From a virus: DNA of 35,472 nt. The DNA lies in the IMG/VR virus record IMGVR_UViG_3300006853_000038, positions 1 through 35,472 of that record. One strand, 5' to 3'. Under the pieces are notes generated by a model. That model was not told the origin of the DNA. It saw nothing but the letters and a program-made list of their open reading frames with translations, and ran no database searches. Every line of letters begins with the position of its first letter. The stretch's first letter is position 1. Below are positions 1 to 23,704 of this stretch, piece by piece. Position numbers and translations under genes: made by a program.

Positions 1-156
1 CTGGTCCCCGAGCTGGCCCCCGAGCTGGTCCCCGAGCTGGCCCCCGAGCTGGTCCCCGAGCTGGCCCCCGAGCTGGCCCCAGAGCTGGCCCCAGAGCTGG
101 TCCCCGAGCTGGCCCCCGAGCTGGTCCCCGAGCTGGCCCCAGAGCTGGCCCCTGAG
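1..156. repeat. 12-bp tandem repeat, 13 units visible
   Basis: Thirteen consecutive copies of a 12-bp unit (CTGG-T/C-CCC-C/A/T-GAG on the plus strand) run from the window edge to 156. The unit is a whole number of codons. On the minus strand it encodes L-G-D-Q, L-G-G-Q, L-W-G-Q or L-R-G-Q, so copy-number change would preserve the reading frame. D and G units mostly alternate. The array continues beyond the window. Confidence 0.95.
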
Positions 157-432
157 ACGCACCTCGAGAACCTGGCGCTGATTGTCGGAGAGCTTGTCCT
201 TCAGCAGCGTGTTGAGAATGCCGCGCGCGACAAGACAGGCCATGGGAGACGAGAGCACGATCACTGCGGTCGGCGCGCGCTCCTCGCCGGCGCGATAAAG
301 ATCGCGCACCGCGCTCCGCGCGGCATCAGCATGGAGGGGCGCAGTCGACAAACCAATCGAGCGCCACTGTTCGCGGAAAGCAGGCAGCGCCGCCGCCTGC
401 TCCTCCGTCATCTTTTCGATGCGCTTGACCAT
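1..432 (-). CDS. DUF6745-like repeat protein, C-terminus off window
   Basis: The frame is open from an ATG at 432 to the window edge, giving 144 codons of a longer protein. The N-terminus has the pattern E-x-W-x-S-I-G-L-S-T, then an A-R-x-A-V-R-D-L-Y-R-A helix and a V-I-V-L-S-S-P-M segment near residues 56-65. I recall this arrangement from DUF6745-type proteins, in which a short alpha/beta head precedes QL/QV repeats. From about residue 93 onward it is a tetrapeptide repeat L-(G/W/R)-(G/D)-Q. Its start lies 2 bp after the stop of the preceding gene, so it is co-transcribed with the leftward early operon. The function is unknown. The family name is from memory and the diagnostic C-terminal part is outside the window, so only the repeat and the operon position are certain. 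Confidence 0.7.
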   Translation of the reverse strand, partial: MVKRIEKMTEEQAAALPAFREQWRSIGLSTAPLHADAARSAVRDLYRAGEERAPTAVIVLSSPMACLVARGILNTLLKDKLSDNQRQVLEVRLRGQLWGQLGDQLGGQLGDQLWGQLWGQLGGQLGDQLGGQLGDQLGGQLGDQ

Positions 433-2743: not shown

Positions 2744-3721
2744 TCAGCCGCCCATGATGTGGTCGGCGGCGGGCACCTTCATCGGCTGCGCGCGGACCTT
2801 GCGGCTTTCCTCGTGATCGATCTCGCGACCGAGGAAGCGGGTTTCGACCCAGGCGGGGATTTCGGGCCGGAGGATGCTGTCGCCGTAGCCGGGCCAGTGC
2901 TCGAGGCCTGGGCCGGCATCGAGGCACTCGCGCCAACGGTCGTCGGCCATGGCGAGCATCTTGCGGCCGATCGTCATGTCGGCCTCGGTCAGGTCCGACA
3001 CGGTGAGCACGTAGGGATAGTCGGTTTCCTGGCAGAGGTACCGATAACGACGGCGGCCGGCGAGGTTGCGATCGAGCGAGTTGAGCCCGCGCTCGGTCAT
3101 CGCGGCCGCCATGCACCAGCCTTCCTTGACGAGCTTGTCCGACACCGCGTGCGGCGCCGCCGATGCCTCGGTAGTTTTCACGTCCCACACGACGCGACCG
3201 TGCTTCGGCATCCAGTCGATCAGGCGCCGGTACCAATAGCCGCCCTTTTCCGACCAGGCGATCATCAGCTCGCCCGTGCCCGCGCCCTGCTGCCAATCGG
3301 CAATCAGCGGCTTGTCGTCGTCGTCCTTCATCGAGGCGAGATAGTCGAGACACGCCTCGGTCATTTCGCGCGCTCGTTCGTTCTGCTCCTCGAGGATCGG
3401 CACTTTGCCAGCCGCGATCGCGGCGTCGCGGAACGCCTTCGCGTCCTTCGTCGTCCAGTTGGCGAACGGCGCGACCGCGAGCTCTTTGCCAGCTTTGAGC
3501 AGGATCGCGTGGAACGCATTCCCCATCGCGAACTTTTTGTGCTCGCTCGGCTCCCAGCGTGGATTAAGGCGAGGGTGGTTCGCCCACACGTGCCGCGGCG
3601 ACTTGTCGAACATCATCTGCGCCAGCGACGCGGTGAGCGATGGCGTCGGCGCGGGGTCGGCGTGATACGCCTTGACCGGAAAGTCCGGATAGAAGCCCGG
3701 CGCCGTGATGCGATCAGACAT
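2744..3721 (-). CDS. PD-(D/E)XK exonuclease, RecE/lambda-exo-like
   Basis: The 325-residue protein has the layout of phage PD-(D/E)XK exonucleases related to the RecE C-terminal domain. It shows a K-F-A-M-G-N-A-F-H-A helix at residues 63-72, an acidic E151 in G-T-G-E-L-M-I-A-W, D169 in R-L-I-D-W, and the catalytic strand V-V-W-D-V-K-T-T with D180 and K182. Such enzymes resect dsDNA ends to leave ssDNA for annealing. AAGGAG lies 7 nt upstream of ATG 3721, a clear start. The first 8 bp overlap the end of the HNH gene. It probably works with the ATPase at 1219-2235. Family assignment is firm at the fold level; the polarity and end specificity cannot be read from sequence. Confidence 0.88.
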   Translation of the reverse strand: MSDRITAPGFYPDFPVKAYHADPAPTPSLTASLAQMMFDKSPRHVWANHPRLNPRWEPSEHKKFAMGNAFHAILLKAGKELAVAPFANWTTKDAKAFRDAAIAAGKVPILEEQNERAREMTEACLDYLASMKDDDDKPLIADWQQGAGTGELMIAWSEKGGYWYRRLIDWMPKHGRVVWDVKTTEASAAPHAVSDKLVKEGWCMAAAMTERGLNSLDRNLAGRRRYRYLCQETDYPYVLTVSDLTEADMTIGRKMLAMADDRWRECLDAGPGLEHWPGYGDSILRPEIPAWVETRFLGREIDHEESRKVRAQPMKVPAADHIMGG

Positions 3722-4160
3722 AGCGGTTCTCCTTGAGGAAGTTGTGCGTGCCGTGGCGCACGGAATCGGCGACGTTGCTGGCGCGGGTGCCCCAACGCAG
3801 GTTGGTCAGGCGGTTGTTCGAAGCGTCGCCGTCATCGTGGCAGCCCTCTTCGCCCGCAGGCGCGGGGCCGACGAACGCGGTGAGCACGAGCTGGTGAACG
3901 TAGACGCTGTTGCCGCGGCCGAGCGTGACGACCATGTGGCCGCTGGCGTTTGCGCATGGCGCGAGGACCCGGCCGCGATGCCGGCGATAGATGTCCTCAC
4001 CATCACGCCCTCGGAGCGTGAGCACGCGATCAAGGCTGCGCACGCGGCCGTGGTTCGATACCTCGTAGCCAGGATGGCCGACCGCCGGGCGCCATTGCTC
4101 GCCGGACGCCAGATTCCCAATGATGTCTGCGGCGATGTCGCCGATCGAGCGGAAGGTCAC
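3714..4160 (-). CDS. NUMOD4-HNH endonuclease
   Basis: This 148-residue protein starts at GTG 4160, overlapping the upstream stop as GTGA. Residues 22-43 (W-R-P-A-V-G-H-P-G-Y-E-V-S-N-H-G-R-V-R-S) match the NUMOD4 DNA-binding motif. The HNH core follows: H89 in V-Y-V-H-Q-L-V-L, then G-C-H-D-D-G-D-A-S-N-N-R-L-T-N-L-R-W-G-T (106-125), with H108, N115/N116 and N120 in the expected places. Proteins of this type are mostly free-standing homing endonucleases that nick or cut DNA and spread between phages. It lies inside the leftward early operon just before the exonuclease, so it may be an inserted selfish gene that kept the operon intact. No intron is visible around it. Confidence 0.9.
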   Translation of the reverse strand: MTFRSIGDIAADIIGNLASGEQWRPAVGHPGYEVSNHGRVRSLDRVLTLRGRDGEDIYRRHRGRVLAPCANASGHMVVTLGRGNSVYVHQLVLTAFVGPAPAGEEGCHDDGDASNNRLTNLRWGTRASNVADSVRHGTHNFLKENRYV

Positions 4161-5573: not shown

Positions 5574-5807
5574 ATGCATAAGAGCTTGATTTTACTTGTG
5601 GGCTTGGCCTTGGCGGGTTGCGTCACCAACCAGACGCCGCCAGAGCCTGAGGCACCGCTGACGCTCGCGCAGTGGTGCAAGCGCGGCTGGGTGGTGCTTG
5701 GCTATCGATCTCTCGATCCGGCCCAAAAAGCTGGACTGCTGGAGCTTATGAGAAATCGAGGGTGTATGAATCCGGACGGCGGCCTTAACGCGGCACCATC
5801 GACTTGA
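5574..5807 (+). CDS. Small lipoprotein in immunity region
   Basis: ATG 5574 has GGGAGG 6 nt upstream. The 77-residue product has a K-S-L-I-L-L-V-G-L-A-L signal helix ending in a lipobox L-A-G-C with the acylated cysteine near residue 14. The mature protein would be about 64 residues. It has two further cysteines (in Q-W-C-K-R-G-W and N-R-G-C-M-N) that could form a disulfide. The gene is transcribed away from PL and converges on the repressor gene, overlapping its 3' end by 23 bp. That location, next to the immunity genes but outside the lytic operons, is typical of lysogenic-conversion or superinfection-exclusion genes, so such a role is inferred. An Rz1-type spanin is less likely because there is no Rz partner. 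Confidence 0.8.
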   Translation: MHKSLILLVGLALAGCVTNQTPPEPEAPLTLAQWCKRGWVVLGYRSLDPAQKAGLLELMRNRGCMNPDGGLNAAPST

Positions 5808-6393
5808 CCTTCGCGGCCCACTCGACCGCTACGTCGAGAATCGGGCCTTCGGTCTGCGACAGCAGGTGAAATAACCCGCGCGATCGGCTCCGCTGGATCT
5901 TCTTCACCAGGATTCGGCCGTCCTCCAGGCCCACGACGCAGAGCTTGCCGATCAGGTCGTGCGTTACCGGCCGGTGCACGTCGTCGTAGAAGATCAGCCA
6001 GCGATCAAAGAACGAACCGAGGCTTTCCCCACGGATTTCCACAGCCACGGTCGATTCGGTGGCGTCCTCGGGCGCGGTGACGCGATCGATCTCGCCCTGG
6101 TCGCCGAAAAAATGCGTGGTCGCACCGGCACTTACGTAGCCCACGAGCGGCACGGTACGCTCGACCGGCGCTTGCTCGCGCCGGTTTTTCTGCCCTCGGC
6201 CGGTCATCAGCCATTCCAGCGCCACGCCGAACCGCTTCGCATACTCCGGTGCCCTGGCCCTGAAGCCGCGCGAGCCGTTTTCGTGCCCTAAATACGTGGG
6301 TTCTGGGATGCCGAGCGCCCGCGCGGCTTCTGACGCGTCGTCATATCCAGCGGCCTTTCGGGCCTGCTGTAGCCGCTCATAAGGTTCCGACAT
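5785..6393 (-). CDS. CI-type repressor, XRE HTH plus LexA-like S24 domain
   Basis: This 202-residue repressor starts at ATG 6393. Residues 5-62 form an XRE-type helix-turn-helix (L-Q-Q-A-R-K-A-A-G-Y ... A-A-R-A-L-G-I-P-E-P-T-Y). Residues 80-200 form a LexA/CI peptidase fold with an Ala-Gly bond at 89-90 (Y-V-S-A-G), a catalytic serine S124 in R-G-E-S-L, and a lysine at 164 in I-L-V-K-K-I. All parts needed for RecA-stimulated self-cleavage are therefore present. No good Shine-Dalgarno sequence precedes the ATG, so translation may be weak or near-leaderless, as for lambda cI. An in-frame ATG at 6423 lies in operator DNA and is less likely. The protein should bind the five 17-bp operators flanking the region. 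Confidence 0.92.
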   Translation of the reverse strand: MSEPYERLQQARKAAGYDDASEAARALGIPEPTYLGHENGSRGFRARAPEYAKRFGVALEWLMTGRGQKNRREQAPVERTVPLVGYVSAGATTHFFGDQGEIDRVTAPEDATESTVAVEIRGESLGSFFDRWLIFYDDVHRPVTHDLIGKLCVVGLEDGRILVKKIQRSRSRGLFHLLSQTEGPILDVAVEWAAKVKSMVPR

Positions 6394-6394
6394 A

Positions 6395-6411
6395 GAATGC
6401 ATTTCGCATAG
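6395..6411. promoter_or_regulatory. CI operator OR3
   Basis: GAATGCATTTCGCATAG has one consensus half-site and one degenerate half-site. It lies 2 bp upstream of the repressor start codon, 21 bp centre-to-centre from the next operator. Occupancy here would repress the repressor gene itself. Confidence 0.7.
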
Positions 6412-6415
6412 CCTG

Positions 6416-6432
6416 TTATGCAAGAGGCATTG
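6416..6432. promoter_or_regulatory. CI operator OR2
   Basis: TTATGCAAGAGGCATTG is a weaker inverted repeat with TATGC/GCATT arms. It overlaps the first bases of the PR -35 (6430-6435) and is centred 24 bp from OR1. Confidence 0.65.
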
Positions 6433-22720: not shown

Positions 22721-23704
22721 ATGTCCCAGGGTGACACCCCGAGCAACGCGTCAGCCGCGGCAGGAGCCGCAGCGCCGACAGAGGCAGCTCAAACGTCTGC
22801 GGTCGACTTCAGCGATCTCGACGCGGAGCAGGAAGCCGAAAGCCGAAAGGCCGAGGAAGCCGGCGACGACGAGGACGACGAGTCGACCAATAGCAGGGAC
22901 GGCGACGACGACGATGCCGACGAAGACGAAGGCAACGACGAAGACGCCGACGACGAGGAAGACAGCGGCGACGCTGACGAGGACGACGACGAGCAGGAGG
23001 ACGATGACGATCGCCCCCGCAAGAAGTCGCGATCGCAGCGCTACCAGGATCAAATCCGCCGACTGCAGGACGAAAACTCGCAGCTGCGTGGCCGCTCCGC
23101 CGGCAACCTGACTGACGAGCAAGTCGCTGCGAAGGTGAAGACGATCATCGGTGAGCCGCCGCAGGAGAAGGACTTCGACGACTACCTGGCATTCGACCGC
23201 GCCGCGCAGGCGTACGAGGTCGACAAGCGCCAGGTGACGCGCGAGGTCAAGGCCGAGGCCGGGCGTGCGACTGAGGCGGACAATTTCCGCAAGCAGCAGC
23301 GCGCCGAGCAGCACAACGACCGCGTCGCGGACTTCCGCACGCGCGGTGCCACGCCCGACGAGAAGAAGGCCAACGCGGCCGACTTCGACAAGGTGATGGC
23401 TGCTGCGAAGAACGCCAAGGTCGCGCCGGTCGTCGAGGAGCTGATCCTCGACAGCAAGAAGGGCGCTCACCTGCAGTACTACCTCGCGAAAAACCCCGAC
23501 CGCCTCGCTGCGTTGAACCGAATGTCCGAGCGCGATGCCGCTCGCGAGATCGGCCGCATCGAGGCACGGCTGGCCCTGCCGAAACCCAAAACGAAATCTT
23601 CGGCACCGCCCCCGCCACGCCGACCGCAAGGTGGATCTGCCCCCGCCTCAGCCGATGCTGAGCTCGAGGGCTACCTCACCAAAAAGTACGGCAAGCAACG
23701 CTGA
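22721..23704 (+). CDS. P22-type scaffolding protein (inferred)
   Basis: The frame is read from ATG 22721 (327 residues); GTG 22709 is an alternative. Residues about 25-105 are extremely acidic: runs of D and E with few S, N and G. The remainder is highly charged and helical (R-R-L-Q-D-E-N-S-Q-L-R-G, then D-D-Y-L-A-F-D-R-A-A-Q), ending in a basic Y-L-T-K-K-Y-G-K-Q. A charged helical protein immediately before a P22-type coat gene is the scaffold. It would fill the prohead and leave before packaging. The identification rests on composition and position, since scaffolds diverge quickly. Confidence 0.8.
   Translation: MSQGDTPSNASAAAGAAAPTEAAQTSAVDFSDLDAEQEAESRKAEEAGDDEDDESTNSRDGDDDDADEDEGNDEDADDEEDSGDADEDDDEQEDDDDRPRKKSRSQRYQDQIRRLQDENSQLRGRSAGNLTDEQVAAKVKTIIGEPPQEKDFDDYLAFDRAAQAYEVDKRQVTREVKAEAGRATEADNFRKQQRAEQHNDRVADFRTRGATPDEKKANAADFDKVMAAAKNAKVAPVVEELILDSKKGAHLQYYLAKNPDRLAALNRMSERDAAREIGRIEARLALPKPKTKSSAPPPPRRPQGGSAPASADAELEGYLTKKYGKQR

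Follow-up and report, generated by a model that had tools for sequence, protein, structure and literature searches.

A 12-bp tandem array inside a phage gene is hypervariable: the number and order of its units differ between otherwise identical phages. The array lies at one end of the window, by which we mean the whole stretch of DNA analysed, a virus-record fragment of 35,472 bases that was apparently broken inside the array. Judged by sequence relationships, the open frame carrying the array probably represents the 5' portion of a gene for a phage DUF6745 protein and one half of a conserved two-gene module, the other half being a member of the P0002 family. The features of the window referred to below are as follows.

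1 to 156, minus strand: hypervariable array of 12-bp (4-residue) units, 13 units of CTC-NGG-GRC-CAG, ending at the contig end (TRF and translation)
157 to 432, minus strand: N-terminal domain of the DUF6745-type protein, 92 residues, starting with the ATG at 432; a relative is modelled as helix-helix-strand-helix
435 to 935, minus strand: partner gene P0002, 166 residues, phrog_27831 (function not assigned), with QGD, GHxH, H-x-EH and C-terminal RxVxD motifs
3717 to 4160, minus strand: HNH endonuclease with NUMOD4 motif, homing-type, adjoining the exonuclease VIII-like gene
5785 to 6423, same strand as the array gene: S24-type repressor-like gene (sequence match)

The array gene, its relatives and its partner

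On the minus strand, positions 432 to 1 form a single open frame of 144 residues (P0001), which starts with ATG and is interrupted by the contig end. Residues 1-92 are non-repetitive, and the remaining 52, from 93 to 144, form 13 tetrads L-(G/W/R)-(G/D)-Q, in the order RG WG GD GG GD WG WG GG GD GG GD GG GD from the N side. TRF reported 13.0 copies of the 12-bp unit at 1-156 (90% matches, score 249) and a 48-bp higher-order period with 3.2 copies (score 277). The preliminary description had reported near-identical in-frame units running off the window, which these results bear out; it had placed the array at 1-432, and the array proved real at 1-156, whereas the N-terminal domain occupies 157-432. 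An open frame also runs on the plus strand over 1-495; relatives were sought for the minus-strand frame and were found there. Another low-complexity repeat lies elsewhere in the window, at 22898-23010; it is rich in GAC, has 3 copies at a 30-bp period, and in one plus-strand reading is rich in acidic residues.

P0001 alone gave only sub-threshold matches in Pfam and PHROG, and this piece, which stops before the C-terminal domain, had no PF20530 match. The same-phage contig L002 continues about 37 residues beyond the array, and its sequence there resembles, by eye, the start of the C-terminal domain of the relative L007. Relatives of the truncated protein are encoded at 46 distinct viral loci. 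The complete ones consist of the N-terminal domain, then the array, then a C-terminal domain of about 200-250 residues, with arrays of 9-62 units in 25 complete genes. All seven full-length relatives scanned first passed PF20530 (54 to 167 bits, E 1.7e-14 to 4e-49; curated cut-off 27 bits). PF20530 was also present in 8 of 10 records behind the loci, and a DUF6745 C-terminal domain in 4 of the 6 proteins scanned later, the other two (L035 and L053) being different proteins. The resemblance to DUF6745 proteins proposed earlier thus holds for the family, while the window's own piece has neither the domain nor a match. In L053 (uncultured Oscillospiraceae), a small ORF at 3694-3975 begins like a leader, with a GG in this part and a QLGDQ-like sequence after it; it may be a peptide precursor and is probably unrelated to DUF6745.

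The domain also occurs in bacterial genomes: 32 of 296 within the class of a mycobacterial centre, 3 of 369 within that of a Nitrosomonas centre, and 2 of 195 from another phylum. Genome and record searches gave 40 further DUF6745 ORFs, mostly bacterial, of which 9 have a tetrad array by pattern and 31 do not, a no-array count that would miss SAVx- or ATxx-type arrays. In the bacterial proteins readable in full, a non-repetitive stretch stands where the array would be. Since these 31 ORFs, mostly chromosomal, show no array, the array would be dispensable for the basic role of the domain. When P0001 was searched in genome contigs, 6 of 480 pattern matches were confirmed; P0001 had no match in the phage collection, and the DNA of the array gene had none in the plasmid collection.

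Only 2 nt separate the stop of P0002 from the ATG of the array gene. The window and 36 of 52 loci carry a P0002-family gene, always on the strand of the array gene, upstream of it in 15 loci and downstream in 21; a P0002-family ORF also shares its locus with 36 of the 40 further, mostly bacterial, DUF6745 ORFs. Because gene order swaps while the neighbourhood is kept, a joint role of DUF6745 and P0002 is indicated. In an alignment of 32 partner proteins, Q15, G16, H54, H138 and the C-terminal D166 are present in all, and D17, H135 and G146 in at least 90%. Both module proteins have conserved C-terminal ends (RxVxD in the partner, with D in 32 of 32; often RT, ET or RR in DUF6745), as if the free C-terminal ends of both mattered. 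Three DUF6745 proteins and three partners were compared with the PADLOC models, which cover described anti-phage defence systems only, and gave no match at E 0.1.

Upstream of P0002 and on the same strand lie genes matching phrog_1366, exonuclease VIII (phrog_412), the HNH endonuclease with NUMOD4 and a repressor-like S24 protein. The position of the array gene beyond the exonuclease VIII-like gene, on the same strand and with the S24-type repressor near, fits a leftward early operon, which the preliminary description had placed under PL. Exonuclease VIII-like, RecT-like (a label given by eye) or phrog_1366-like genes occur within the flanks covered at 11 of the 52 loci, and the nearness of such recombinase genes to the module is only suggestive of a link to array turnover.

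AlphaFold2, run with 25 aligned proteins on the 338-residue relative L013, predicted the N- and C-terminal domains confidently and the array as helical with pLDDT of about 40-50; the partner was predicted to be beta-rich (pLDDT 85.8). Foldseek found nothing in the PDB at E 0.001 for either protein, the best values being 0.64 (partner) and 0.36 (DUF6745 relative), and VIA-align 2 gave maximum Z of 2.4 and 4.4 for the two models, values that common arrangements also reach. Searching the PDB by sequence with the two alignments yielded no meaningful match. In BFVD, the single match of the partner at E 0.001 or better was an uncharacterised phage protein (E 2.8e-5). Several weak matches were set aside: UreE_N for the partner, seen in 1 of 32 members at E 0.007, was taken as chance, and Trigger_C, DUF2939 and glycine-zipper matches fall on the array and were attributed to the repeats. 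DUF2939 on the prophage protein L116 (29.6 against a cut-off of 24.8 bits, with no single stretch passing) was likewise read as repeat composition.

Array change on identical flanks

A first pair is the window and L002. The two contigs are 100% identical over window positions 160-35472, in two overlapping comparisons of 19,841 and 19,873 bases. Their arrays have six leading units in common and then differ, L002 passing into the C-terminal domain after 10 units and the window having at least 13. A second pair, L024 and L026 from two other metagenomes, is collinear over 5025 bases with 6 mismatches, all of them inside the array at bases 6-54, that is, within the first 54 bases of the L026 contig, where errors are commoner.

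The third pair comprises L116, the Mycobacterium abscessus prophage prophiGD102-1, and L016, an IMG/VR record taken as a mycobacterial prophage by its likeness. The partner gene and N-terminal domain are identical at 640 of 640 bases and the C-terminal domain at 641 of 642, so that the flanks together match at 1281 of 1282 bases. Between them, L116 has 46 units and L016 has 62 (run counted), with one common unit at the start and two at the end. The longest run common to the two arrays is 4 units (48 bases), while 200 shuffles gave a mean of 4.2 and a maximum of 7. The wider region is only about 94% identical, and therefore the module itself may have been exchanged by recombination. Copy number, which had been suggested to be variable, does vary both here and between the window and L002, and the invariance named beforehand as grounds for rejecting this was not seen.

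Could such differences be produced by short-read assembly within a repeat? We consider this very unlikely. Most contigs are probably short-read assemblies, and long repeats are not reliably ordered by short reads; contig ends often fall in the array, as in the window and many loci. The self-overlap of the L014/L042 contig inside the array is exactly 127 nt, and 127 is the largest k-mer of a common assembler. However, long-k-mer assembly can misorder long repeats but does not invent short unit runs; runs of a few units fit well inside one read and yet are not common to L116 and L016, whose common runs do not exceed 4 units. The positions of contig ends also argue for real diversity, 9 of the 11 that lie in arrays being at phases 3, 7 or 12, where graph forks are expected (P 1.3e-4 against 3/12, for phases picked after the contig ends were seen). 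L002 ends 111 bases beyond its array, in unique flank, and its last 127 bases start right after a variable base and reach that flank, which is expected if more than one array joins it. If the assembler used k=127, as the self-overlap suggests, the final k-mer of L002 starts right after the variable base of the last-but-one unit, the place at which two arrays would be expected to fork.

L014 and L042 are both ends of IMGVR_UViG_3300046813_000129. The 127-nt self-overlap in the array probably makes this record a complete circular genome that was opened there. For sequencing methods, the main text of PMC8092301 gives 300-base paired Illumina reads, with Nanopore in some cases, and GD102 does not appear in that main text.

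Variable sites and possible roles of the array

Site counts were made on 36 arrays (924 units), namely those of the window and of 35 of the 46 viral loci, using the longest uninterrupted run per array. Left out were L004, with a broken frame, and L017, L023, L029, L031, L039, L041, L042, L045, L046 and L047, which were partial, short, not clear, or simply not entered; L035 was counted although its other domain is not DUF6745. The arrays have common ancestry, and window/L002 and L024/L026 are each a pair from one phage, so the 36 arrays do not count as that many independent tests. Exceptions to the unit CTC/CTT-NGG-GRC-CAG are few. Minor alleles at sites 1 to 12 number 9, 0, 10, 474, 33, 11, 7, 366, 9, 3, 0 and 6, where the search pattern, by demanding L/I/M and Q/E, constrains sites 1-3 and 10-12 at the residue level and leaves sites 4-9 free. 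Sites 4 and 8 thus hold 840 of the 928 minor alleles within arrays (90.5%), or 840 of 900 among the free sites, and 19 of the 36 arrays vary at these two sites only.

Both sites change the amino acid, site 4 giving G, W or R and site 8 giving G or D. The six resulting unit types account for 860 of the 924 units (GG 207, GD 181, RD 136, WG 133, RG 115, WD 88). The fractions of R and D per array are uncorrelated (Spearman 0.02), which gives no sign of charge balance. The Arg codon is AGG in some arrays and CGG in others, and both together in none of the 36, although the later array L102 has both. From this we infer that old variants are reshuffled rather than new ones made, with the alphabet kept at the protein level. 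The preliminary description had proposed a length-tuned protein whose array changes without loss of frame. Length does vary, but the phrase is too narrow, because the units are also shuffled in order and it is the residues that vary. Frame is kept by 12-bp units throughout the 36 arrays counted; the exception is L004 (IMGVR_UViG_649633091_000001), where at about 1250-2400 the frame shifts inside the array and the N- and C-terminal domains lie in different frames, by either natural inactivation or sequencing error.

Confinement of the variation to nearly two positions per unit is also what targeted mutagenesis of these sites, for example by a diversity-generating retroelement, would leave. This origin is extremely improbable, since in nearly every array the variable site draws on a fixed set of letters, mostly G and T with either A or C, and not on all four, and strains differ mainly in the order and number of known units.

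Other repeat frameworks were found at the same place in the protein. Searches with C-terminal domains added seven loci that have new arrays, and L063 came from the phages collection. The frameworks are SVxx (L099), ATxx (L100, L101), SQLx going to DQLx (L102), SAVx (L105-L107) and SLxS (L063). Framework codons are invariant or nearly so in these arrays, with some exceptions in L100, L102 and L107, and in L105 all 37 of 37 units have identical nine framework bases. The variable codons mainly encode R/H, G/A/S, D/E/N and W/Y/F/H. As the frameworks differ and the kinds of variable residue recur, the family keeps a period of 4 residues, the location of the array in the protein and the type of residue that varies, but neither LxxQ nor a DNA motif. 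In the array at L102:1841-3112, SQLx units give way to DQLx/GQLx units, as if one framework were being replaced by another through concerted evolution. At L035:4722-5543, an LxxQ array (26 units in the counted run) is joined to an unrelated N-terminal sequence (MCNFWSCLLTKDGK...), with no DUF6745 match in the sequence examined; the LxxQ array may be a portable module.

The frameworks bear directly on a function at the DNA level, in which the 12-bp units would be an array of protein-binding or recombination sites or a G-rich structure and the protein reading would be secondary. Framework codons are indeed frozen within an array even at synonymous sites, and G-runs recur every 12 bases in the array of the window. 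Homogenisation explains the freezing within arrays, however, and across the family the DNA framework changes (Leu as CTC, CTT, TTA or TTG; NGG versus NGC; AGC-GCG-GTC-NRC, and others) while the 4-residue period and the place in the protein stay. A DNA-level function is accordingly given little credence, and the G-quadruplex or DNA-site reading was rejected on the ground that the DNA framework is not kept between arrays.

The explanation we consider best, to which we give an even chance of being right as a whole, is a two-gene module with a reshuffled array serving as a selected, changeable contact surface. A hypervariable minisatellite between the N-terminal domain and the C-terminal DUF6745 domain would encode 4-residue units with a frozen framework, in which one or two residues per unit vary among a few chemically contrasting types (here G/R/W and G/D). 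Unequal recombination or slippage between 12-bp units probably reshuffles a standing set of six cassettes, keeping the frame because the unit is 12 bp, and nearby phage recombination functions (in the window and the 11 loci noted above) would perhaps aid this. Selection may then keep the variable residues diverse because the array serves as a multivalent contact surface that can change. Placed between the two constant domains, it could act with the partner protein on a changing target in the host or a rival phage.

The strongest competitor is a passive or compositional linker, a serious possibility that we nevertheless hold to be less probable. Here the minisatellite is unstable and the order of its units irrelevant, selection acting on framework, frame and an approximate composition (flexible and rich in Q and G, with R, W and D present), for example as a spacer or as a sticker-and-spacer for assembly. 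Order scrambled to the shuffle level with all unit types kept (L116/L016), low AlphaFold2 confidence over the array, array lengths spanning 9 to 62 units and the lack of an array in most chromosomal homologues seen are all consistent with a linker. On the other hand, neutral turnover should yield synonymous variants, and sites 6 and 9 account for only 20 of the 900 minor alleles counted across sites 4-9; W, R and G, which share a single position, are chemically unlike, and similar residue kinds recur in different frameworks. We weakly favour a variable multivalent binding surface over the linker, on the near absence of synonymous variants and the recurrent alphabet, and these data do not decide between the two.

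A more specific version of the binding surface, which is speculative and rather improbable, treats the tetrads as a minimal modular recognition code. Each unit would present a variable residue, or two, of basic, aromatic, acidic or small type, and the order of the units would spell the target, similarly to TALE repeats with their units of 34 residues; phages and prophages would re-spell the array via recombination, with the constant domains and the partner acting as effector.

Comparison with known systems

Proteins with variable repeats are a known class; searches of open-licence PMC text turned up neither this family nor its period, two-site alphabet or turnover, and there no paper names 'DUF6745' and none was found on phage tetrapeptide hypervariability or similar. 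The array is a natural protein module that changes faster than its surroundings, the same phage over 35 kb having a different array. As the change uses a small, readable alphabet, one can ask what the array reads or touches, and the DUF6745 domain gains a partner gene and a part that lends itself to testing. Should the array bind a variable partner, it would represent a small recognition module that can be altered; otherwise it would be an exceptionally clear example of composition maintained by selection as the order drifts.

The nearest relatives are actinobacterial chromosomal DUF6745 (PF20530) proteins, which likewise have the N-terminal domain, a C-terminal DUF6745 domain and an adjoining P0002-family gene. 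Those seen have a non-repetitive segment in place of a tetrad array, whereas the phage relatives have the array. Pentapeptide-repeat and other short-repeat solenoids have a short exact period with one hydrophobic framework position. The array shares both properties, but its period is 4 rather than 5, and the model shows no confident solenoid.

TALE proteins consist of near-identical helical repeats of 33-35 residues, differing mainly at variable residues 12-13 and drawing on a small alphabet. The array is alike in having near-identical units that differ mainly at two residues from a small alphabet, but its units are of 4 residues rather than about 34, without detectable relation or known ligand. 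On the size of its repeat, a TALE-type repeat protein was rejected.

Coding VNTRs and minisatellites resemble the array in their tandem in-frame 12-bp units and in a copy number that differs between near-identical genomes. In the array, copy number differs between otherwise identical genomes and the frame is kept by unit length, with L004 as the exception. It differs from coding VNTRs in two respects: one pair with identical flanks has a fully scrambled unit order, and variation is nearly confined to two residue-changing sites per unit.
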